DNA of 64,000 bases from Paenibacillus andongensis. Its GTDB lineage: Bacteria; Bacillota; Bacilli; Paenibacillales; NBRC-103111. This document shows positions 2,182 to 28,412 of this stretch, piece after piece (position 1 is the stretch's first letter; every line of letters begins with the position of its first letter). The notes under the pieces are model-generated. The model was not told the origin of the DNA. It searched no databases and saw nothing but the letters and a program-made list of their open reading frames with translations. The position numbers were made by a program, and so were the translations under genes. The DNA is taken from the NCBI RefSeq assembly GCF_025369935.1, contig NZ_CP104467.1:6021001-6085000 (forward strand), given 5' to 3'.

Positions 2182-2299
2182 ACCTACACCTCCAATAAAT
2201 TGTTGTCTCTACTGAATCCAGCATAATACACCCGCTCTCAAGCTTTTTCTTTCTGCTGCGGTTCTTCAATCCCACAAGAATTCAATAAACCACCTCGTT

Positions 2300-2313
2300 T
2301 GTTAGCGCTTACA
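2300..2313 (-). promoter_or_regulatory. cre box (CcpA site)
   Basis: TGTAAGCGCTAACA on the minus strand fits the Bacillus cre consensus TGWAANCGNTNWCA at every position. It lies about 100 nt downstream of the predicted transcription start of the glycoside hydrolase gene, where CcpA would act as a roadblock. Catabolite repression is an inference. Confidence 0.75.
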
Positions 2314-2418
2314 TTTTAAGTTTTACCGAGATGCAAGTGTTGCCAAATCTTTTTAGAAAACCTAGAATCCATTCATTTAATCCGAGATACACCTCCATTC
2401 TCAAGTGGTATGGTACTC

Positions 2419-2448
2419 ATTATAAGGAAATGCACGAAGCTTGCACAA
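2419..2448 (-). promoter_or_regulatory. Candidate sigma-A promoter for glycoside hydrolase
   Basis: A perfect -10 TATAAT (2419-2424) is preceded by TTGTGC (2443-2448) with an 18-nt spacer. The -35 box matches only three of six positions, so activation by a regulator such as the adjacent YesN-type protein is plausible. Confidence 0.5.
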
Positions 2449-2530
2449 CAGGACAGAAACGCGATATGTCCGACAAAAATACGGAACTATCCCATTGGTT
2501 CTTCCTATGACGTTGCATCTGTATTGATGA

Positions 2531-4333
2531 TTACGAGTACGAGGGTGACTTTGGGATAGCTAGCATCTGAGGCTTAAGTTTCGCTACTGCTCGACAACCT
2601 GATCCTGGCTGGCTAAAAAACTGCAGACCACATTCCTCACCATAATGAACCTGGATTCGTTGATTTACACTTTTCACGCCATAACCGCGAGTTTCTATTT
2701 CTAAAACCCCCTTCAATTGCTCTTCTGTCATTCCGATACCATCATCACTTACCTCCAAATATACATATTTTTCCTGTTGATATGCCCTAACCGTGATGAT
2801 ACCCGCCTTACCTGGTTTAGGTCTAATACCATGAATGACAGCGTTCTCAACTAAAGGCTGCAGAATCATCTTGATAATCACAACGCCCGCAATCCCCTCT
2901 TCGATATCGGTCTCAAACCGGATTGCTCCGCGATAACGATAATTGATAATGTGCATATAACGGCTGACCTCTTCTACTTCCTCGGACAGTCTTATATGCT
3001 CTTTGCCCTCGTTTAGGCTGAGCCGAAGAAACTTGGCCAGGGATTCCGTAATTTCTGCAATTTCCTTCGCATCAATGCGTAGGGCACTCCATTGGATGAT
3101 ATCAAGCGTGTTGTATAGAAAATGTGGATTGATCTGCGCATACAGCAGCTTCATCTCTGTCTCCTGCTTGCTAATTTTCACCTGATACACTTCTTCTATT
3201 AATGCTTTGGTCGTCATACTCATCTGGTTAAAAGAACGCTGCAATCGAGCATACTCATCATTACCACGAATATTTGTTTCCGTTTCAAATTGTCCTACAT
3301 CGGCAAGTTTAATTAAACGAATAAGCTTCTTTAGGCGCTTAGTAATAGAGCCTGAAATGAAAAAAGCAGTAATAATGGCAAGAATCGAAACGAATGCAGC
3401 CAAGGCGAACATGAAATTTTGAATGGATCTACTATTCATGCCCAGATGCTGCTCGGTCATCAGTAGAGAAATATTCCAGTCCAACCCGCTCAACTTGCTA
3501 TTGACTGCATAATAAGTACCTAAACCGGGACCGAAATGGGTGATCCCTTCCTGACGGGTGGGCAACGAGGACAAAAACTGCTGTTCCAACTTGACATCAC
3601 CCAAGGGGAGATGCTTGACTCCGATCCTTACACCACCTGTGTGCACTAACGTTTCTGCTCCATCAGGAAGCCTTAGATCGTTAAGAATATCCCAAATGAA
3701 CTTCGAATCAAGCTCAATCATCACATAACCAAGTATTTGTTGGATATGGTTGATATCGTGAATTTCTTTAATAAAGAGCACCTCGTCTGCTTGTGCTAAT
3801 TGTAAGTGCTGAATCACATCAGCATGAAACCAGGCTTGCTTCTTGCTCTCATTCAGCAATGGCTTTATTGCAGAATCCTTTTCAAGCTCCCCTATGCTGA
3901 AAAAATTCGGATTTGCTGATAGGAATGCCGGATTGCCCTTCATAAAAAAGCTCACCTTAAGTACATTTCTTTTCCCTTCATAATTGGTAACATTTTTATT
4001 GAGCACATTGAAGAAATCGATAACTTCGGCCGAAGTCAGTTGACGTTCGGCTACAGTTTGCAATACCTTTTGAATATCATAATTACTTTGCGCCAAATCT
4101 GCGATATCATAACCCACGTCAAGTCCAAATGCTACATTCTTCTCCGCTTGCTTAAGCGCTTCTAGATACGCGTTTCCGGTTTGCTCCACAACCGACTTGT
4201 GAATCGTTGTATAGGTGAAATAAACCAGCAAGAAAACCGGAACAATGATCAGAATTAAATAGGAGAAGACTAGTTTCGTGCGCAAATTGAGATTGTAATA
4301 GAACCCGCTCAGTACATCCGCTAATTTTCTCAT
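2531..4333 (-). CDS. YesM-type sensor histidine kinase
   Basis: A 600-residue membrane sensor kinase. Membrane segments lie at about 20-42 and 305-327, enclosing an extracellular sensing domain of roughly 260 residues. A HAMP linker follows (about 328-380), then the His_kinase family motif QINPHFLYNTL with phospho-acceptor H404, then a HATPase domain with an N box (PLVENAVIHG) and G box (DDGIGM). The ATG overlaps the stop of the response regulator gene by one base, so the two are translationally coupled. In Paenibacillus and Bacillus such pairs usually sense plant or bacterial glycan fragments and control a neighbouring sugar importer. The ABC genes just upstream are the likely targets. Confidence 0.92.
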   Translation of the reverse strand: MRKLADVLSGFYYNLNLRTKLVFSYLILIIVPVFLLVYFTYTTIHKSVVEQTGNAYLEALKQAEKNVAFGLDVGYDIADLAQSNYDIQKVLQTVAERQLTSAEVIDFFNVLNKNVTNYEGKRNVLKVSFFMKGNPAFLSANPNFFSIGELEKDSAIKPLLNESKKQAWFHADVIQHLQLAQADEVLFIKEIHDINHIQQILGYVMIELDSKFIWDILNDLRLPDGAETLVHTGGVRIGVKHLPLGDVKLEQQFLSSLPTRQEGITHFGPGLGTYYAVNSKLSGLDWNISLLMTEQHLGMNSRSIQNFMFALAAFVSILAIITAFFISGSITKRLKKLIRLIKLADVGQFETETNIRGNDEYARLQRSFNQMSMTTKALIEEVYQVKISKQETEMKLLYAQINPHFLYNTLDIIQWSALRIDAKEIAEITESLAKFLRLSLNEGKEHIRLSEEVEEVSRYMHIINYRYRGAIRFETDIEEGIAGVVIIKMILQPLVENAVIHGIRPKPGKAGIITVRAYQQEKYVYLEVSDDGIGMTEEQLKGVLEIETRGYGVKSVNQRIQVHYGEECGLQFFSQPGSGCRAVAKLKPQMLAIPKSPSYS

Positions 4334-19280: not shown

Positions 19281-20588
19281 TCAACTAACCAAAAACCCAA
19301 CTTTTACATTTGAATCTTCTTTCATCCATGACATCGTTTGCCCTTTATGCAGATCCGACTTCATCGATTTCACCAGCTTCTCAATATTCACGCTTTGCTC
19401 ATAATGCCTATGAAGCGCAGCCGATACATACAATTCATTTAACTGGGCAAAAGTAAACCCTTCCGTTTGTTTCGCCGTTACTCGAATCAACTCTTCGCTC
19501 AGAAGCTTCCCTATCCCCTTTTGTTCTAAATAGATTTGTCTCAGCTCTAAATCTGGAAGCTTGATTTCATAAGCACGGTCGAATCTCCCTGCCCGGTTCA
19601 TAAGTGCCGGATCAATTTGCTCCGGATAATTCGTTGTCCCAATGAGGAAAATGCCTTCTTTGGAAGTCGCGCCATCCAAAATGTTCAAAAAGTACGACCT
19701 CGCCCGCTGAGGCATAGCGTCGATATCCTCAATAACAAGAATCATTGGCGCCATGTTCGCCGCAGCTTGAAACACCTCTTGAATAGATTCGCTACCCGTA
19801 TTCTCCGTTATTTGCCAATAAGCAACAGGAGCCTTCACACTGCCGGCAATCGATTTGACTAGCGTCGTTTTTCCATTGCCAGGTTTGCCGTAAAGCAAAA
19901 CACCTCTTTTGTAAGGAAGCTGATACTCTTTGAAAAAAGCACGATCCTCAGCAAAAAACTGATCGATAGAGCGATAAATATCAGTCTTCACTTCGTCTTT
20001 CATAATGACCTCCGAACGGTCGACCATGCGTGTAATAGGAGCTAATTCCTTCTCCATGCCATGAGGGCCATCCGTGAAAACAGTCACTTGTCTTCGGTCC
20101 AAATCCCTACGCCGCTGCCGGGCATGTTCTAAAAAACAGAGCAGACTCTCATCATCCACAGCAAAAACAAAATCCTCTTCTCCAACGCCATTCATACGAA
20201 AGATAGGCACTCTAGCTAATGCGATTCCCCAGGATGGGTAAGCGAAAACGTTATTGCGCAGTGTAGGAAACGTCCGATAGGCCGATACTTCACTTTCCGC
20301 ATCCATTCCGAATGCACGTGATTCCATATGGTCGAAGATTCTAGTGACGAAATGCACATCATCACTGCCGGTTTTCACATCCTGCTCCAACAGCTCCCAA
20401 TACTCTTCTTTCCTGTCATCACTCAGATAAGCTTCAAAATGCTGTTCATATTTATCACTAAGCACATTTTGAATGCGTTCCAGCACATAGGCATAGTCCC
20501 TATATGCTGAAAGCGAGCGGCCTTCCGACCTATTCGAAAATGTTACTACTGCTGATTCCTCCAAACTTACTCCCTGAAAATAATTCAT
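19281..20588 (-). CDS. AAA ATPase linked to RtcB
   Basis: A 435-residue protein with one AAA module: Walker A GKPGNGKTT (234-242), Walker B LVIEDID (284-290), sensor-1 N320 and arginine-finger region AGRFDR (333-338). The first 200 residues are a family-specific N-terminal domain without a motif recognisable by eye. The AAA core resembles BCS1/proteasome-type unfoldases. Its ATG overlaps the rtcB1 stop by 4 nt (ATGA), so it is translated with the ligase. It may remodel an RNP or protein during RNA repair, but no function is established from sequence. Confidence 0.85.
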   Translation of the reverse strand: MNYFQGVSLEESAVVTFSNRSEGRSLSAYRDYAYVLERIQNVLSDKYEQHFEAYLSDDRKEEYWELLEQDVKTGSDDVHFVTRIFDHMESRAFGMDAESEVSAYRTFPTLRNNVFAYPSWGIALARVPIFRMNGVGEEDFVFAVDDESLLCFLEHARQRRRDLDRRQVTVFTDGPHGMEKELAPITRMVDRSEVIMKDEVKTDIYRSIDQFFAEDRAFFKEYQLPYKRGVLLYGKPGNGKTTLVKSIAGSVKAPVAYWQITENTGSESIQEVFQAAANMAPMILVIEDIDAMPQRARSYFLNILDGATSKEGIFLIGTTNYPEQIDPALMNRAGRFDRAYEIKLPDLELRQIYLEQKGIGKLLSEELIRVTAKQTEGFTFAQLNELYVSAALHRHYEQSVNIEKLVKSMKSDLHKGQTMSWMKEDSNVKVGFLVS

Positions 20589-22006
20589 TTAGCACCTTTT
20601 ACTGCCGCCATGGGCTTACATTTAGCTACAACCTCAGCCAATCCCGCTCCGACAACACTTTCAATAATTTGATCTACATCTTTATAAGCTTGAGGTGATT
20701 CATCTAGAATTGACTCTAACGACCTTTGGTTAACAACAATTTCCTCATCCGTACCTACTCGCATGGAAGAGGCAAATTCATTTAAAGTTATCAATCTTTT
20801 CGTCGCGCTGCGCGAGCGAATTCGTCCTGCACCATGACAGATGGAGTGAAAGTTGGCTTTGCCGCCTGGGGCTCCTACCATGATGTAGGATGCTGTCCCC
20901 ATTGAACCGGGAATCAACGCTGGGTGACCTGTATTTAAATAAGGCTGCGGATTGCTTGAATGGCCTGCCGGAAGCGACCTCGTCGCCCCTTTGCGATGCA
21001 CAAAATAGGACTCCCCCTCATGCTTTTCCTCCCAAGCATAGTTATGCATGAGATCATAAAGCGTCGTCATTTCAAACTTCGACCCAAACACATCCTTACC
21101 AGCCTCACGAATGGCATAGGCAATGAGATGGCGGTTTACAACCGCATAATTGAGCGCTGAATACATCAAATTTACATAAGTCTGAGCTGTCGGATGATCT
21201 AATGGCGCAAATAGCAGCTTTGGATCCGCTGTTCCTAATCCGTTCATCCGCATGACCTTCATCATATCATTGCTGCAATATTGACTCACAGAGCCACCCC
21301 ATGCACGCGAGCCCGAATGAATCATAATGACCACTTGACCATCAAATAGTCCCCATGCTTCAGCCACCTCACGGTTCTCTTCCGCAATCTCTATGGATTG
21401 AATCTCCGCAAAATGGTTCCCATTCCCAAGCGTCCCCAGCTGGCGATGTGACCGATGCCATACGTTGTCCGGAAATCGATTCAATGCATTTTCATCCAAA
21501 GTAAATTTGCTGCTTTCTACATGTGTAAGCGAAGTCGCCTTGCGCGGCGTATAGCCGTCGGGAATATACTTCTTTGAAAGTCCGTGCAGCCCTTTGGTGA
21601 CGATGTGTTCCAATCGGATGTCCGAGAAATGTCCACGTACGTGGTCTTCCACGGGTAAGTACTTCTCGATCGTCTTCACCAGCTTGCGGCGCAGCTTCAC
21701 ATCCTTCAGGTCAGCCTTGTGCAAATTCGTCATATGCACCTTCATGCCACAGCCAATATCGCTACCGACAATGGACGGTGATACATATCCGTCATGCGTA
21801 TTCCATACTGCTGTCGTGCCTATGCAAGTACCAACACCAACGTGTACGTCAGGTGTATAGCTCATATACACTTGATTTGGAATCTGCAAATTGTTGTTAG
21901 CCATTTGAAAAACTTGATAATCCAAAGCTTTAAATAATTCAGGTCCTGCGTATACATGCACAACTCCCGATGGGAGCTGGACCTGTTGAATATAGTTTTC
22001 TTTCAT
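20585..22006 (-). CDS. rtcB: RtcB-type RNA ligase, copy 1
   Basis: A 473-residue RtcB ligase, which joins RNA 2',3'-cyclic phosphate or 3'-phosphate ends to 5'-OH ends using GTP and manganese. All active-site motifs are present: SDIGCGM (D83, C86), LGNGNHFAEI, MIHSGSRAWG and CHGAGRIRSR, the last carrying the His expected to be guanylylated. It sits between a nucleotidyltransferase gene (upstream, 15 nt gap to the start) and the AAA ATPase gene (4-nt overlap). A second RtcB paralogue lies at 24736-26154. No RtcA or archease gene was seen in the window. Confidence 0.95.
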   Translation of the reverse strand: MKENYIQQVQLPSGVVHVYAGPELFKALDYQVFQMANNNLQIPNQVYMSYTPDVHVGVGTCIGTTAVWNTHDGYVSPSIVGSDIGCGMKVHMTNLHKADLKDVKLRRKLVKTIEKYLPVEDHVRGHFSDIRLEHIVTKGLHGLSKKYIPDGYTPRKATSLTHVESSKFTLDENALNRFPDNVWHRSHRQLGTLGNGNHFAEIQSIEIAEENREVAEAWGLFDGQVVIMIHSGSRAWGGSVSQYCSNDMMKVMRMNGLGTADPKLLFAPLDHPTAQTYVNLMYSALNYAVVNRHLIAYAIREAGKDVFGSKFEMTTLYDLMHNYAWEEKHEGESYFVHRKGATRSLPAGHSSNPQPYLNTGHPALIPGSMGTASYIMVGAPGGKANFHSICHGAGRIRSRSATKRLITLNEFASSMRVGTDEEIVVNQRSLESILDESPQAYKDVDQIIESVVGAGLAEVVAKCKPMAAVKGAK

Positions 22007-22021: not shown

Positions 22022-22807
22022 CTACGAACCCCAAACCTCCCTCAGCGCATCTCGGAATAAAGCATCTAATGCTGCTTCTTGCTTTTCTCCAGAGACCGCG
22101 ATATGTTTGGCAGTTTCTTCAAAATAAGCGATTTGTCGATCTAAATAGTCGTTGATTACTGTAATTTTCGGCTCTAAGTCGAACTCGACGCCAGCCTTCT
22201 TACGCGTCAACAACGTATATACTTCTTGTTTTAATTTCGATTCCGGCAGCATTTGCTCCACCAGATCCTCAAAATCCATCGGCGGCATGCTGCCGCGCTC
22301 TTCAATCCACTGGCAAGCTAGTATTGGCCGCAACACATAGAAATACTTTTTGATTTTCACATACTCACCCTGCAAATATTCCCGAAAGTTCCCTTTGGCC
22401 ATATGCAAATAGTGGTACATACTGGACCGTGGAGAAAAAGTTAACGGTGAAAGCTCGCGGATTTTCTCCGTTACACCGTATTGCTCCAAATATTGAATCG
22501 GAGACTGCAGCCATTCGAGTAAGGGCGGGTTCGATTTCCGAAACAAGTTCAGTGCCTTTTTCAAATCCCAACCGTTAATGTCGAGCTGATCGCTGATCGG
22601 ACGCTCAATAACATCTCGTTTCTCGAATAGAGATAAGTACCAGTCTACGGGTCTTACATAGATGAACCTCACATCATAATCACTGTCCTTCGAAGGAAAT
22701 CCCCAGGCTCTACTACCCGATTCACAAGCATAGAGGATCCGAACGCCTTCCTCTTGTTCAATTCGTTTAAGCTCACTATCTATTTTTCTCGTATCAAAAA
22801 ATGTCAT
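22022..22807 (-). CDS. COG3541-type nucleotidyltransferase
   Basis: About 261 residues. The N-terminal DNA-polymerase-beta-like nucleotidyltransferase signature is clear: GSRAWGFPSKDSDYDVRF, with the two catalytic Asp residues in DSDYD. The remainder is helical and matches the YcgL/COG3541 pattern in general layout. The ATG at 22807 was chosen because AGGGTGAG lies just upstream; the open frame extends to 22861 through a terminator hairpin, which is unlikely to be coding. It is the first gene of the nucleotidyltransferase-rtcB1-AAA operon. A role in adding nucleotides to damaged RNA ends before ligation is an inference from context. Confidence 0.85.
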   Translation of the reverse strand: MTFFDTRKIDSELKRIEQEEGVRILYACESGSRAWGFPSKDSDYDVRFIYVRPVDWYLSLFEKRDVIERPISDQLDINGWDLKKALNLFRKSNPPLLEWLQSPIQYLEQYGVTEKIRELSPLTFSPRSSMYHYLHMAKGNFREYLQGEYVKIKKYFYVLRPILACQWIEERGSMPPMDFEDLVEQMLPESKLKQEVYTLLTRKKAGVEFDLEPKITVINDYLDRQIAYFEETAKHIAVSGEKQEAALDALFRDALREVWGS

Positions 22808-22843
22808 GGGACTCACCCTTTCTTCGTATGATGTGGACGCAAA

Positions 22844-22874
22844 AAAGCCATAGACCAACATCGTCTACGGCTTT
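22844..22874 (-). terminator. Intrinsic terminator in the leader of the rtcB1 operon
   Basis: On the minus strand a 12-bp stem AAAGCCGTAGAC/GTCTATGGCTTT (one G-U pair) with a 7-nt loop is followed by a T run. It lies only about 37 nt before the nucleotidyltransferase ATG, downstream of a 29-codon ORF. No promoter fits between hairpin and gene, so operon expression seems to need read-through or antitermination. Confidence 0.8.
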
Positions 22875-23118: not shown

Positions 23119-24234
23119 TCATTGCTTGGAAATGTTTTTATCTCCAACAAGCGAGTTCAGCTGCTCTAGTAGGTTACCTCCACCGTTGAAAGAAATCGTC
23201 CCGATTTTCTCGCATATCTTCTCCAGAAACTCAAGCTCCTTCAAACGAAACAGGGTTTGGTTCTCATCCATAAGCTTAGCCGTATTGAGCAAGCTTCGTG
23301 TAGAAGCTGTCTCCTCACGCCGCGTAATGAGATTGGCTTGAGCCTTCTTCTCAGCCAACAAGACCGTATTCAGAATATCCTTAATATCACCCGGCAGAAT
23401 AATATCTTTCACACCTGCGGATAAGAACTGCACGCCATAATCTAGACTTTTCTCATTCAAGCGCGACAAAACGTAAACGGTGATTTCCTGTTTCATTTTC
23501 AACAAATCATCTAACTTCAATGTACCTACATACTCACGCAAAATAAGCTGCAGCTGAATGTACATCTGCTCTTCGAACGACTTGATTTCAAGAGCTCTAA
23601 GCGGATTCAAAATGCGATATTGGCACACAAAGTTGAGTCGCAGTGTTACCTTATCCTCCGTCATCATTTCTTGCCCCGTCATATCCATTTGCTGTTGGCG
23701 CAGATCGACGGTTTTCACCGCGACTCCTATAGGTCCCTTCCAGAAATAATATTTTCCGGGTGCCAGCTCCTTTTGCATAACATGGTTATAAAACAAAGCT
23801 CCACTTTCGTGACTAGCCACATCAAACGTCTGATAGTAACCAATTAGCTTTGGAATGATAGCTGGATCAATTTCCTTTGGTAATTCAGGATTACGTATAT
23901 CCGCACGAAGATAAGTGTGCTTTTTCAAAACATTCCAAAAAGCATAGTTCCCGGCTATCAACACCCCAACAAATTTGCCGTCTTCATAATGCAGCACATA
24001 TTCATTGTCTTGGACAAGCACGATATCCAGCTCTTGTATGAGTATTTCGTCATGCATAAACAGCAGAAGGTCTTTTCCTTTTACGCTAAAAGGCTGCGTA
24101 ATATTAAGAATAATAACGTTATCATCCGAAAATGGAGACAACCGATATGTTCCAGGCCGTAAGCATTTATAGTAACTGCCTTTACGAAAAAGCAGTCCTC
24201 GTTCGTCATTTTGTATCGTCACTTTTTTAAACAT
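23119..24234 (-). CDS. Slipin / SPFH (band 7) domain protein
   Basis: About 371 residues from the ATG at 24234, which has AAGGAGG 6 nt upstream. Residues about 110-330 match an SPFH/band-7 domain (VKTVDLRQQQMDMTGQEMMT through LAEKKAQANLITRREE), followed by a helical tail. No clear N-terminal membrane helix is seen, unlike membrane slipins, so membrane attachment is uncertain. It lies downstream of rtcB2 and the tRNA-like RNA on the same strand. Slipin genes are known companions of RtcB in bacterial RNA-repair neighbourhoods. Its molecular role there is not established. Confidence 0.85.
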   Translation of the reverse strand: MFKKVTIQNDERGLLFRKGSYYKCLRPGTYRLSPFSDDNVIILNITQPFSVKGKDLLLFMHDEILIQELDIVLVQDNEYVLHYEDGKFVGVLIAGNYAFWNVLKKHTYLRADIRNPELPKEIDPAIIPKLIGYYQTFDVASHESGALFYNHVMQKELAPGKYYFWKGPIGVAVKTVDLRQQQMDMTGQEMMTEDKVTLRLNFVCQYRILNPLRALEIKSFEEQMYIQLQLILREYVGTLKLDDLLKMKQEITVYVLSRLNEKSLDYGVQFLSAGVKDIILPGDIKDILNTVLLAEKKAQANLITRREETASTRSLLNTAKLMDENQTLFRLKELEFLEKICEKIGTISFNGGGNLLEQLNSLVGDKNISKQ

Positions 24235-24735
24235 GTTATACCTCCTTGAATAATGGATCACATATTTGGAGTCTTCCTGCAATTAGGGCGGAATTCTGCT
24301 TAAGAGTACAAGAAATGAATAACAGCCATTTGAAAATTAGTTGGAGTTGTCGAGTTTCACAATCAAACCGTTTATCGTCCAATTCTTAACAAACTTTTGT
24401 AAACATTCGTGTAATCGGTATCTGCAGACTGCATAGCCTTAGTGCAGTGTGCAATTTCAAAGCCACAGAAGACTCCAGTACGCGATCAATAGGGGATGTT
24501 TTTCGCTCGATTGAAGTCGAGTGCTCTACCACTGAGCTAATCGTTCCACACGATAGGGGATTCGAACCCCTGCACCAGGGGAATGCACGCCGAAATGAAC
24601 ATTACAGTATACAAACACATAGGGATGTGTGAGCACTGCCGGACTATTTGAAATCCTAGCCTTAGTAAAGTCATCCGTACATACATCCAAATTTATGATT
24701 ATACGTCCATTGACGTCTATCATCACTAGATTTTC
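24235..24735 (-). other. Long rtcB2-slipin intergenic region with structured RNA
   Basis: This 501-nt gap is too long for a simple operon junction. On the minus strand it holds a 6-bp hairpin (ACACAT/ATGTGT, near 24613-24630), a -10-like TATACT (24606-24611), the permuted tRNA-like core (24506-24571), and a second hairpin with arms ACTGCA/TGCAGT (near 24428-24448). The ribosome binding site of the slipin gene follows. No conserved ORF was recognised. Confidence 0.65.
24506..24571 (-). ncRNA. Circularly permuted tRNA-like RNA (YrlA-like candidate)
   Basis: Read on the minus strand, four tRNA-type arms follow each other without gaps. The T arm (24555-24571) has a 5-bp stem and canonical loop TTCGAAT. 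A closed acceptor hairpin (24540-24554) pairs ATCGT with ACGAT around GTGGA. TA follows, then a D arm (24523-24537) with stem GCTC/GAGC and loop AGTGGTA, and after one A an anticodon-like arm (24506-24521) with stem CTCGA/TCGAG and loop CTTCAA. The order is a circular permutation of tRNA, with the acceptor ends fused and no CCA. Bacterial Y RNAs of the YrlA type carry a tRNA-mimic module and often lie near rtcB. The true transcript ends and any outer Ro-binding stem could not be identified by eye. Confidence 0.75.
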
Positions 24736-26154
24736 TTAAACACCTTTAATCGCAACCATCGGCTTACAAGTCGCCACTACATCTGCTAGCGACGCGCCCA
24801 CAACACTATCAATAATCTGATCCACATCCTTATAGGCTTGTGGACATTCATCAAGAATCGTTTGCAGGGAACGATGATTAACCAGAATCTCATCTTCCGT
24901 ACCAACTTTCATCGATTGCGCGAATTGATCGACGGTGACAAGCTCTTTCGTTGCCTTCCGTGATCTTGCCCTCCCCGCACCGTGACAGATGGAGTAGAAG
25001 TTTTTCAGCCCTTCCTCTTTCCCCACCATAATGTAAGATGAGGTCCCCATAGAACCCGGGATTAATGCCGGATGCCCAGTTTCTTTATAGGCAGCTGTAT
25101 TCAGAAAATGACCTGGCGGCAGCGCTCTTGTCGCTCCCTTTCGATGAACGAGCATGGATTGATTGCGGTGAAATTCCTTTAATGCATAGTTATGCATAAG
25201 GTCATAGAGTACCGGCATTTCAGTATCCCCGCCAAACACTTCTTTAAAAGCTTCACGAACACCGAAAGCAATCATATGTCTATTACTTACTGCAAAATTC
25301 AGTGCGGAATACATCAGATTTAAGTAGGTTTGCCCTTCATGACTTGCAATTGGCGCATATAAGAGATTCCGATCCGGATTTACGATACCCCAACTGTTCA
25401 TTACTTCTCTGAACACTTTGGTGAATTCTTGCCCCAACATAGCTCCCCATGCACGAGAACCAGAGTGAATCATGACGACAACCTGACCGTCGAACAAGCC
25501 CCATTTTGCAGCTAAATCCTTATGTGCCTCTGCCACTTCTAGATACTGAATCTCTATAAAATGGTTCCCGCCGCCAAGCGTCCCAAGCTGTCCATGGGCA
25601 TACTTACGGATTTTTGCAGGCAAATTCTCAAGGTAGGCGTGGTCGAATTTGAACGAAGACTCTTCAACATGTGTAAGCCACTGTTCATTCGGAACATATT
25701 TCTCAGGAAGTCCTTTTAATCCGTTTTGAACGACATCCATGATATCGATATCCGAGTAATTCGTATTCGTACGCTCATTCGTTGGAACATATTTCTCGAT
25801 CGCTTTGATCAGCGCTCTACGAATTCCCTTGTCTTGAATATCACTTTTGTGCAGGGATGTCATATGCACGCGCATGCCACAGCCGATATCTACGCCAACA
25901 ATTGAAGGGGAAACGAACCCGTCTTTCATGCTCCAGACTGCCGTTGTCCCAATACAAGTACCAATACCAACATGGGCATCCGGGGTGTAGCTCATATGCA
26001 CACTTCGCGGAATCCGCAGGTTATTATCTGCCATTTCAAATACTTTGTTTTCAAAGGATTGGAACACATCCGTATTAGCAAAAACATGAAGATTACCATG
26101 CTCTAATGTCATTTCGTAATGATTACCGCCGTGTATCTTTGTTTTCATATCCAT
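24736..26154 (-). CDS. rtcB: RtcB-type RNA ligase, copy 2
   Basis: About 472 residues from the ATG at 26154 (GGAGG, 8-nt spacing); the longer open frame to 26214 lacks a signal. All RtcB motifs are intact: VDIGCGMRVH, LGGGNHFIEI, MIHSGSRAWG and CHGAGRARSR. It is clearly paralogous to copy 1, sharing long identical stretches such as the LVHRKGATRALPPGH region and the C-terminal YKDVDQIIDSVVGA region. It is divergent from a WYL regulator gene and followed by the tRNA-like RNA and slipin gene. Why two active ligases sit 3 kb apart is not evident. Confidence 0.95.
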   Translation of the reverse strand: MDMKTKIHGGNHYEMTLEHGNLHVFANTDVFQSFENKVFEMADNNLRIPRSVHMSYTPDAHVGIGTCIGTTAVWSMKDGFVSPSIVGVDIGCGMRVHMTSLHKSDIQDKGIRRALIKAIEKYVPTNERTNTNYSDIDIMDVVQNGLKGLPEKYVPNEQWLTHVEESSFKFDHAYLENLPAKIRKYAHGQLGTLGGGNHFIEIQYLEVAEAHKDLAAKWGLFDGQVVVMIHSGSRAWGAMLGQEFTKVFREVMNSWGIVNPDRNLLYAPIASHEGQTYLNLMYSALNFAVSNRHMIAFGVREAFKEVFGGDTEMPVLYDLMHNYALKEFHRNQSMLVHRKGATRALPPGHFLNTAAYKETGHPALIPGSMGTSSYIMVGKEEGLKNFYSICHGAGRARSRKATKELVTVDQFAQSMKVGTEDEILVNHRSLQTILDECPQAYKDVDQIIDSVVGASLADVVATCKPMVAIKGV

Positions 26155-26268
26155 TTGGTTAACCTCCGTTTTTCTTCTAAAGCTATCTTCGCTTATTTGA
26201 GATGGAGTGAACATGGTGAAAGTATGACGACAGGTGAAAAGTTTTCCATTTTCTCCATATCTCTCCCC

Positions 26269-26311: not shown

Positions 26312-27637
26312 ATGGCTAAGGAAAGCTTTGATAAAGAAATTCAATTTCTGCGTATGCTTGTCCTCACTAGCGGGGCATATAGTCGTCAGCAATTTGCGGA
26401 GAGGCTGGGTATCTCGGTCCATACTTTTGATAAAACATTACGTCGGTTAAAAGAAATCGTAGCTTCGATGTATCAACAGGCGCCAGATATGCAAAAGAAA
26501 GAACTCGCCGAGATGCTTCGTTACAGCTATTTCGATTCAACTGATCCTATGCTGCTGTTCTTATTTCGAGCAAAGTCATTGAAAGAATCCGAAAGTCAGC
26601 GAATATCTACGCTTCTTGCTACTATGAATGTGCAGCCCCTTACCGCTATTGAACTCCTGGACGTATGTTGTAAAGATATCCAAACGGATTCCTCTCTTCC
26701 TGACGAGAAGACGATTCGAAACGATTTAAAATATCTGGAAGAAGTCGGTGTCATCAAAAAAGAACCCGGACCACGTCCCTATCGTTATCGCATACATAAT
26801 GATTTAATCCAAGAGCTTACACTTGATGAGCTAATTGACCTTTATGATTTTATCGATGTGATGTCGAATACGCAGGTACCGTCCGTTCAAGGCTATTTAC
26901 TGCGAGATGGGCTTAAAAAGCATATGAATCGGACCTCATCGGAACCAGCATCCATAGAACCATTCCTTTATAAATATCATTATCATTCACGTATTTTGGA
27001 TGAAGCGCATCTGTCCATCCTTCTATCAGCTATTCAAAATCGCTGCAAGATCGATTTCTTATACTTTTCGCCCAAAAATTCGCAATCCTATTCTTCGAAA
27101 AATACAAATCCCTTATTTGAACGTGAAATGGAAGGGAAGCTCCAAAAAACATTACCGCTCAAAATTGTCTACGATCACCAATATGGACGATGGTACCTTC
27201 TCGCTTATGATTCACGGCATGGCATCAAGAAATATCGGATGGAAGGCATGACTCAGATTGAGCATGGTGAGCGTGTCGACTCCATCCTTTTTGATGAGAA
27301 GAAAAGTGTATTGGAAGAGAGTATAAAGCATAGTTGGGTTCTTGATACCGGACGATCGGTTACCTTGAAAGTAAGATTTTTTAACCCAGGTGATACGGGG
27401 CCGAATTTCATTAAAGATCGCGTCCTGCTTCAGGGGCAGTGGGGAGAGATTACGGAAGAGACGACAGATTGGTTTATTTTCGAGATAGAGGTTAATGGAA
27501 CTACGGAAATTAAGCCTTGGATTAGAAGCTTCGGATCCAGCTGCGAGGTGCTTGAACCCCTCTATTTTCGGAATGAGATGATATCGGAGTGGAAGGAGCT
27601 TGAGGCGTATTATGAACCTGTTCGAGAAAATATTTAA
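26312..27637 (+). CDS. WYL-domain transcriptional regulator with N-terminal HTH
   Basis: A 441-residue regulator. Residues about 15-50 form a helix-turn-helix (YSRQQFAERLGISVHTFDKT). A second winged-helix-like region follows (about 110-150), and the WYL domain is centred on GRWYLLAYDSRHG (about 290-305), with a C-terminal WCX-like segment. WYL domains bind nucleic acid or nucleotide ligands and occur as regulators of phage defence and DNA/RNA-damage systems. Divergent from rtcB2 and overlapping a second WYL gene, it is the probable sensor/regulator of the RNA-repair island. Confidence 0.88.
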   Translation: MAKESFDKEIQFLRMLVLTSGAYSRQQFAERLGISVHTFDKTLRRLKEIVASMYQQAPDMQKKELAEMLRYSYFDSTDPMLLFLFRAKSLKESESQRISTLLATMNVQPLTAIELLDVCCKDIQTDSSLPDEKTIRNDLKYLEEVGVIKKEPGPRPYRYRIHNDLIQELTLDELIDLYDFIDVMSNTQVPSVQGYLLRDGLKKHMNRTSSEPASIEPFLYKYHYHSRILDEAHLSILLSAIQNRCKIDFLYFSPKNSQSYSSKNTNPLFEREMEGKLQKTLPLKIVYDHQYGRWYLLAYDSRHGIKKYRMEGMTQIEHGERVDSILFDEKKSVLEESIKHSWVLDTGRSVTLKVRFFNPGDTGPNFIKDRVLLQGQWGEITEETTDWFIFEIEVNGTTEIKPWIRSFGSSCEVLEPLYFRNEMISEWKELEAYYEPVRENI

Positions 27638-28412
27638 CTATCAAATGATCACGCGGCTGGAGGATTCGGGCACTTTCATGATCACCTCACAGGAAAGGTC
27701 ATGGCTGAAGACCATGCTTAACCACCCCTCAGCGTCCTATGCCTTCACCCCAGTAACACTAGAAAAGCTTGAATCTGTGCTAGTTGATGAGAACACCTTG
27801 GATTTTGCTGAAGCCTTTGTTGAAAAAGCTCGAAGTAAGGAGAAGCAGGTCTATCACCCGATGCTTCGCGCATTACGTCGATTCATTATAAGACAAACTG
27901 CTATCCAACTTACTTACAAAGTGAAGGATGATCGGACTTTTACCAATGAAATGGCTTATCCCTATAAGCTTGAGTATTCCTTGGTAAAAAAAGAATGGTA
28001 CTTGCTCTGGTATCACATCAGACATCGGGCGATGATGAGTTCAAAGCTCGACAAGATTGAATCGATCAAAGAATTGACCATTTCTGCTGAGCGAGTCGCC
28101 CAAATTGGCTTAGACATAGAGAAACTGCTGCAAAAACGTCAGATTCATGCAACGATTGAGGTTATAAAGGAATACAATCGGGAGTTATCGCGGATTTTAT
28201 ATGCCTTCTCTTGCTTTGAGAAGCAAGTTGATTATGATGAAATTCGAGAAACGTATACAATCCGATTAACTTTTCTAAATAATGAAGCCGAATATGTCCT
28301 TAGCAAACTTCGTTTCTTGGGCAAGCGGGTGCGTGTCACCCAAGGCGATCATTTGCAAAGGAGAATGCTTGAATCGGCCAAAAAAGCTTTGGCTAGGTAT
28401 GAGGAAACATAG
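27612..28412 (+). CDS. WYL-domain protein without N-terminal HTH
   Basis: About 266 residues from the ATG at 27612 (GAGG, 6-nt spacing), overlapping the preceding WYL gene by 26 nt. The WYL signature is KEWYLLWYHIRH, followed by a WCX-like C-terminal region. The first 80 residues show no confident DNA-binding motif, so it may act as a heteromeric partner of the larger WYL protein. It ends one base from the convergent symporter gene. Confidence 0.82.
   Translation: MNLFEKIFNYQMITRLEDSGTFMITSQERSWLKTMLNHPSASYAFTPVTLEKLESVLVDENTLDFAEAFVEKARSKEKQVYHPMLRALRRFIIRQTAIQLTYKVKDDRTFTNEMAYPYKLEYSLVKKEWYLLWYHIRHRAMMSSKLDKIESIKELTISAERVAQIGLDIEKLLQKRQIHATIEVIKEYNRELSRILYAFSCFEKQVDYDEIRETYTIRLTFLNNEAEYVLSKLRFLGKRVRVTQGDHLQRRMLESAKKALARYEET

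Follow-up and report, generated by a model that had tools for sequence, protein, structure and literature searches.

Within the 64,000-nucleotide (nt) stretch of Paenibacillus andongensis DNA analysed here (the window; contig NZ_CP104467.1, positions 6,021,001 to 6,085,000), the gap between rtcB2, encoding an RtcB family RNA ligase, and a slipin gene carries a structured RNA on the minus strand. The RNA has a conserved, covarying fold, co-occurs strictly and in fixed order with slipin in the Paenibacillaceae and is frequently placed in RNA-repair operons. On balance, we think it probable that it belongs to an undescribed RNA class that acts with a soluble slipin in the place held elsewhere by Ro60 and Y RNA, and we infer that the two form a ribonucleoprotein (RNP).

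A conserved covarying RNA with a permuted cloverleaf

The initial annotation had described a T arm, a closed acceptor hairpin, a D arm and an anticodon-like arm in permuted order on the minus strand at 24506-24571, and all four are present as described. They lie within a longer conserved unit, whose parts are as follows.

at least 24415..24669 (-): conserved structured RNA, extent of covariance model R1 (R1 238 bits, 100-sequence alignment, covariation)
24602..24668 (-): P0 closing helix, 5' strand 24668-24665, 3' strand 24605-24602 (covariation, flank permutation test)
24640..24657 (-): P1 hairpin (covariation)
24604..24638 (-): P2 long hairpin, GCAGUGC ... GUAUACUGU (covariation, cross-match of model R2, described below)
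24555..24571 (-): T arm AGGGG-TTCGAAT-CCCCT, loop TTCGAAT (sequence, fold, covariation)
24540..24554 (-): closed acceptor hairpin ATCGT-GTGGA-ACGAT (sequence, fold, two-sided changes)
24523..24537 (-): D arm GCTC-AGTGGTA-GAGC, loop AGTGGTA (sequence, fold)
24506..24521 (-): anticodon-like arm CTCGA-CTTCAA-TCGAG, 6-nt loop (sequence, fold)
24448..24467 (-): 3' hairpin TGTGGC ... GCACA (covariation)
24415..24422 (-): 3' conserved element GATACCGA (sequence conservation)
24235..24414 (-): spacer between the RNA and slipin (no terminator-like site found)

A blastn search with 291 bases around the element gave matches in 36 of 104 Paenibacillaceae genomes, and the alignment of relatives showed that the conserved unit is far larger than the cloverleaf, which makes up about a quarter of the whole RNA. 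With the covariance model R1, about 150 of 395 genomes from the order gave full-length matches (best E 1e-86), partial matches near E 1e-6 being tRNA-like background. Many matches at model positions 129-163 or 137-163 likewise look like ordinary tRNA background, and two blastn matches (L076 and L077), which lacked both a nearby slipin and a strong R1 match, were treated in the same way. Matches outside the order (G401, G701 and others; 30-39 bits) were weak, had no slipin nearby and were rejected. An Rfam scan returned no family that describes the RNA, and a literature search with partial, open-access coverage found no report of it; a prior mention is possible.

Covariation analysis was underpowered with 28 sequences and was redone with 100 Paenibacillales sequences. 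In these, 95.6% of base-pair cells hold standard pairs, against about 33-46% with slid partners, and every pairing measure lay above all 500 shuffles. As this alignment had been fitted to the covariance model, a tree-based null was also run, on independent MAFFT alignments; the listed pairs were all structural, with the T stem, P2, the 3' hairpin and P1 at E <0.05. Individually, the T-stem pair 24570/24556 was significant against this null (E<0.025), pair 24652/24645 of P1 reached E 0.025 in a helix with two-sided changes at four of its five pairs, and pair 24465/24450 of the 3' hairpin covaried significantly. The P0 pairs 24666/24604 (E 0.15) and 24668/24602 (E 0.45) ranked high but covaried more weakly; the outermost pairs of P2 compete with P0. 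Within the 3' element, GATACC is nearly invariant.

Conservation and compensatory changes of the arms in relatives had been put forward with the initial annotation as its test, and both were found. The T stem, the acceptor hairpin and the anticodon-like arm each show compensatory changes among the 100 aligned sequences (for example, C-G to U-A in the acceptor, and G-C to A-U or U-A in the T stem), with two-sided changes at all four helix pairs of the acceptor hairpin and 99.8% of cells paired in the anticodon-like arm. Conservation is lowest in the D arm, whose stem is missing from some relatives and whose GG-A motif occurs in 69 of the 100. At three loci (L047, L199 and L202) the tRNA-like module has been partly lost naturally and the remaining RNA kept. 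The predicted fold of the isolated cloverleaf fragment consists of the four arms (-21.8 kcal/mol). As shuffled sequences fold with comparable energies (z -0.9), thermodynamics alone is no proof, and the case rests on conservation.

The tRNA likeness of the four arms stops at the acceptor end, which is closed as a hairpin, and at the anticodon-like loop, which has 6 nt in the window (7 nt in most relatives) and hence no anticodon register. Permuted, and with neither a free CCA end nor a usable anticodon, the module is a mimic rather than a tRNA. Circularly permuted tRNA genes also place the 3' half ahead of the 5' half, but differ from the present module in that it has a closed acceptor hairpin and no anticodon register and is embedded in a larger conserved RNA. 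The two-piece (permuted) transfer-messenger RNA (tmRNA) is a permuted tRNA-like RNA as well; here, however, neither a tag reading frame nor a CCA end was recognised, and a scan of the window by ARAGORN gave neither a tRNA nor a tmRNA gene.

Slipin genes beside the RNA in Paenibacillales and beyond

The RNA tracks slipin, not rtcB. Among the 104 family genomes, the RNA accompanies slipin, next to it and in the same orientation, in all 45 that bear the gene, and 58 have neither; no genome carries slipin by itself. In the remaining RNA-bearing genome (G057, locus L149), the stretch examined holds only a 37-residue slipin match. In each of the 100 aligned loci the RNA is followed on its own strand by a slipin match, at a distance of 117-429 nt (median 192.5 nt); in L149, where the RNA scores 78 bits, this match is the 37-residue fragment just mentioned, possibly a broken gene. 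RtcB and RlaP occur at part of the Paenibacillales loci, and rtcB was rejected as main partner since many loci carry the RNA and slipin with no RtcB detected nearby. Of the early suggestion that the RNA might work with slipin or RtcB, the part on slipin is best supported, and the part on RtcB as such finds no support. In the window, the neighbouring genes are these.

23119..24234 (-): slipin/SPFH protein, the linked partner (Pfam Band_7, co-occurrence, hydropathy, AlphaFold2 model, repeat profile comparison)
24736..26214 (-): rtcB2, RtcB family RNA ligase (protein domain search)
22022..22861 (-): RlaP nucleotidyltransferase (PF10127, 343.6 bits)
20585..22006 (-): rtcB1 (protein domain search)
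19281..20588 (-): AAA+ ATPase (protein domain search)
26312..27637 (+): WYL regulator 1, divergent, conserved neighbour (protein domain search, relatives' loci)
27600..28412 (+): WYL regulator 2 (protein domain search, relatives' loci)

Relatives of the RNA also stand ahead of one kind of slipin in many Firmicutes and Proteobacteria. We examined distant slipins (33-46% identity) and 80 further loci from a genome scan; a single query set the similarity ranking of the loci from one scan, and T arms and promoters were counted with simple patterns. Ahead of distant slipins in Vibrio, Pseudomonas, Burkholderia and others stands a homologous core accompanied by one, two or three tRNA-like modules. 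The plasmid records examined (Subdoligranulum, Burkholderia, Citrobacter, E. coli and Photobacterium) have a T-loop motif in every leader. Of the 80 scanned loci, 78 have a perfect sense-strand T arm no more than 600 nt upstream, compared with 0/80 on the antisense strand and 0/80 inside the gene; of the two misses, L249 has only 263 nt upstream and L259 has two T arms further upstream. Phages searched with slipin gave no match.

Homology of the core was assessed with a second model, R2, built without Paenibacillales from 29 sequences, nearly all proteobacterial and one from Clostridia. When run on 486 kb, its five best matches were the Paenibacillales core at the expected place, two of them clear (L214, E 5e-5; L212, E 1e-4) and three weak (L186, E 0.015; L195, E 0.09; L154, E 0.4). 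By this cross-match, P2 is homologous to the CCGGUGC ... GUAUGCCG hairpin of Proteobacteria. Of 48 held-out loci, over half have an R2 match upstream of slipin too. As for P0, the flanks of proteobacterial leaders are more complementary to each other than to swapped flanks, and 0/20000 permutations reached the observed value. These leaders are about 300-500 nt long; the conserved part in the window measures 255 nt.

The proteobacterial RNA is often found at the head of rtcR-slipin-rtcB operons, behind a sigma54 site. Within the flanks examined, RtcR occurs at 48, RtcB at 50 and RlaP at 18 of the 80 loci, and a sigma54-type site was seen upstream on the sense strand in 29 of the 42 loci of the divergent-rtcR set (antisense, 0/42). 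Many of these loci have the RtcR/sigma54 layout of RNA-repair operons (rtcR, sigma54 promoter, rtcB); Citrobacter has rtcR, a gap, slipin and a nucleotidyltransferase, in that order. The window has divergent WYL regulators beside rtcB2 instead. Both regulators (26312-28412) diverge from rtcB2 and, across many Paenibacillales loci, adjoin the RNA and slipin, also where rtcB2 is absent; they may replace RtcR.

In E. coli, the leader of locus L226 is present in 1,624 of 5,426 complete genomes, with no feature annotated under the match among the 15 matches listed. At another E. coli locus (strain 13C1079T, L309), an unannotated leader, slipin, a nucleotidyltransferase and a zeta toxin lie between yjbD and lysC. 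A Beggiatoa metagenome-assembled genome (L268) carries three tandem RNA units at 2274-3965, spaced 544 nt apart, ahead of one slipin. Each copy has the core, tRNA-like modules and the 3' domain, and no open reading frame (ORF) of at least 80 amino acids (aa) lies wholly between copies, such ORFs flanking the array, which favours the RNA as a unit of its own.

Known tRNA-like RNAs and rival explanations

As the initial annotation had noticed, the module resembles that of YrlA, the Y RNA of rsr-yrlBA-rtcBA operons. The YrlA model RF02553 matches the cloverleaf, the order of T arm, closed acceptor hairpin and D arm is the same, and both RNAs have an RNA-repair operon setting and a linked partner protein. 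However, the match scores 32 bits against a cut-off of 69 and covers only model positions 30-81; positions 1-29 and 82-114, with the Ro60-binding Y stem at the ends, are not aligned, and the flanks form instead the different P0/P1/P2 core of a longer RNA, whose partner gene is slipin/SPFH as opposed to Ro60/Rsr. A search of the whole genome for PF05731 (TROVE/Ro60) gave no match, extending the earlier observation that the window lacks such a gene, and TROVE is found in 14 of 46 family genomes with the RNA and 18 of 58 without it, that is, with no association. YrlA membership was therefore rejected, and of the two alternatives proposed at the outset, a YrlA-like RNA or a new class, the latter is best supported. 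It is very unlikely, in our view, that the RNA is a divergent YrlA-type Y RNA binding an unrecognised Ro60-like protein: the permuted module is shared, Y RNAs are found in RNA-repair operons too (PMC7790460) and a protein of some Paenibacillaceae has a partial TROVE match, but the module-only score and the distribution of TROVE argue otherwise. We hold it equally improbable that the tRNA-like elements serve as functional tRNAs, induced along with RNA repair to take over from damaged ones. Rfam tRNA scores do reach 58 bits in some leaders, and the Anabaena repressor TrcR influences a tRNA operon as well as rtcB and a slipin gene (PMC10272220). Yet the Paenibacillales modules are permuted with a closed acceptor end, modules are embedded in a conserved non-tRNA core, and NCCA is encoded after a 7-nt acceptor in just 23 of 131; moreover, working tRNAs are unlikely as a class, since no more than 29 of 124 modules combine a 7-nt loop with U33 (18 different triplets). 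Individual modules decay in some members, as degenerate tRNA relics without an independent function might, but compensatory changes across helices largely refute that idea and, given the full co-occurrence with slipin, we find it scarcely credible.

The main rival is a cis-acting leader, in which the RNA would be the 5' untranslated region of the slipin operon and its module would sense tRNA damage, nuclease or tRNA-processing activity and so control slipin expression. The RNA precedes slipin on the same strand in every aligned Paenibacillales locus, at a short and fairly constant spacing and with no terminator-like site found between them in the window, and the sigma54 site upstream of the RNA means that RNA and slipin are probably co-transcribed in many Proteobacteria; all this could describe a 5' leader and weighs against an RNP. 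In L268, however, two of the three tandem units do not adjoin slipin, and a tRNA-like part that varies from one to three modules, in permuted or canonical order, would be unusual for a sensor, and we regard the leader as a serious but somewhat unlikely explanation. Three further points count against an RNA that acts with slipin through its mimic. The D and anticodon-like arms are gone in L047 and the T arm was not found in L199 and L202, so that the core may be more important than the mimic; R2 was rightly placed in only 5 of 38 Paenibacillales sources, in three of them weakly; and deletion of PaFlo8, an SPFH protein of the P. aeruginosa rtc locus that is possibly orthologous to slipin, had no reported effect in growth-related, virulence-factor, biofilm and swimming assays (PMC13086221).

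We nevertheless favour an RNP, in which a structured non-coding RNA with one or more tRNA-like modules would pair functionally with the soluble slipin encoded just downstream. The RNA would act in trans, its P0-P1-P2 core binding a slipin oligomer, and the tRNA-like module might present, or compete for, a tRNA-handling enzyme such as RtcB, RlaP, a modification enzyme or an anticodon nuclease. This putative role is modelled on the one thought to be played by the YrlA module with Ro60/Rsr.

The slipin protein and the meaning of the pairing

The slipin has a Band_7 domain (PF01145, 87.3 bits against a cut-off of 23.6) and is without a clear membrane segment: the 19-residue hydropathy maximum is at most 1.53 in all but two of 39 sequences (L257, 1.75; L074, 1.91). 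A Pseudoalteromonas slipin ORF (L234) runs to 540 aa, compared with the usual 370-400 aa. In an AlphaFold2 model (mean predicted local distance difference test score 83.5), three five-stranded N-terminal beta repeats are followed by an SPFH domain and a long helix; profile comparison relates the repeats to one another with 98% probability. The predicted order of repeats, SPFH-like shoulder and helix resembles that of the major vault protein (MVP) in the eukaryotic vault RNP (MVP, vault RNA and TEP1), and residues 4-351 of the model align with MVP (9bw5) at a VIA-align Z of 11.7 (253 aligned, root-mean-square deviation 10.5); for slipin, too, an RNA partner is proposed. Slipin, however, has three repeats where MVP has nine; the repeats alone score Z about 6 to SPFH1 domains versus about 4 to MVP, and sequence comparison with MVP gave no significant match, which makes the vault comparison an architectural one. 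Foldseek with the N-terminal repeats alone gave no match at E <= 0.001, and vault RNA was compared with the present RNA through the Rfam scan only. A bolder reading, which we put at somewhat less than even odds, is that a soluble, vault-like cage of SPFH protein assembles with tRNA-mimic RNA into a bacterial RNP that would be the alternative to Ro60 and Y RNA in RNA-repair operons; this could tie SPFH cages to both vaults and Y RNAs.

Meanwhile, tRNA-like matches upstream of slipin genes should be read with caution, for they may be modules of a larger RNA. If the proposal is true, many bacteria, including the 1,624 E. coli genomes counted above, carry an undescribed RNA class tied to slipin in RNA repair. 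The role of slipin in rtc operons would then become testable, and the pairing could connect SPFH cages with the biology of Ro60-Y RNA and of vaults.
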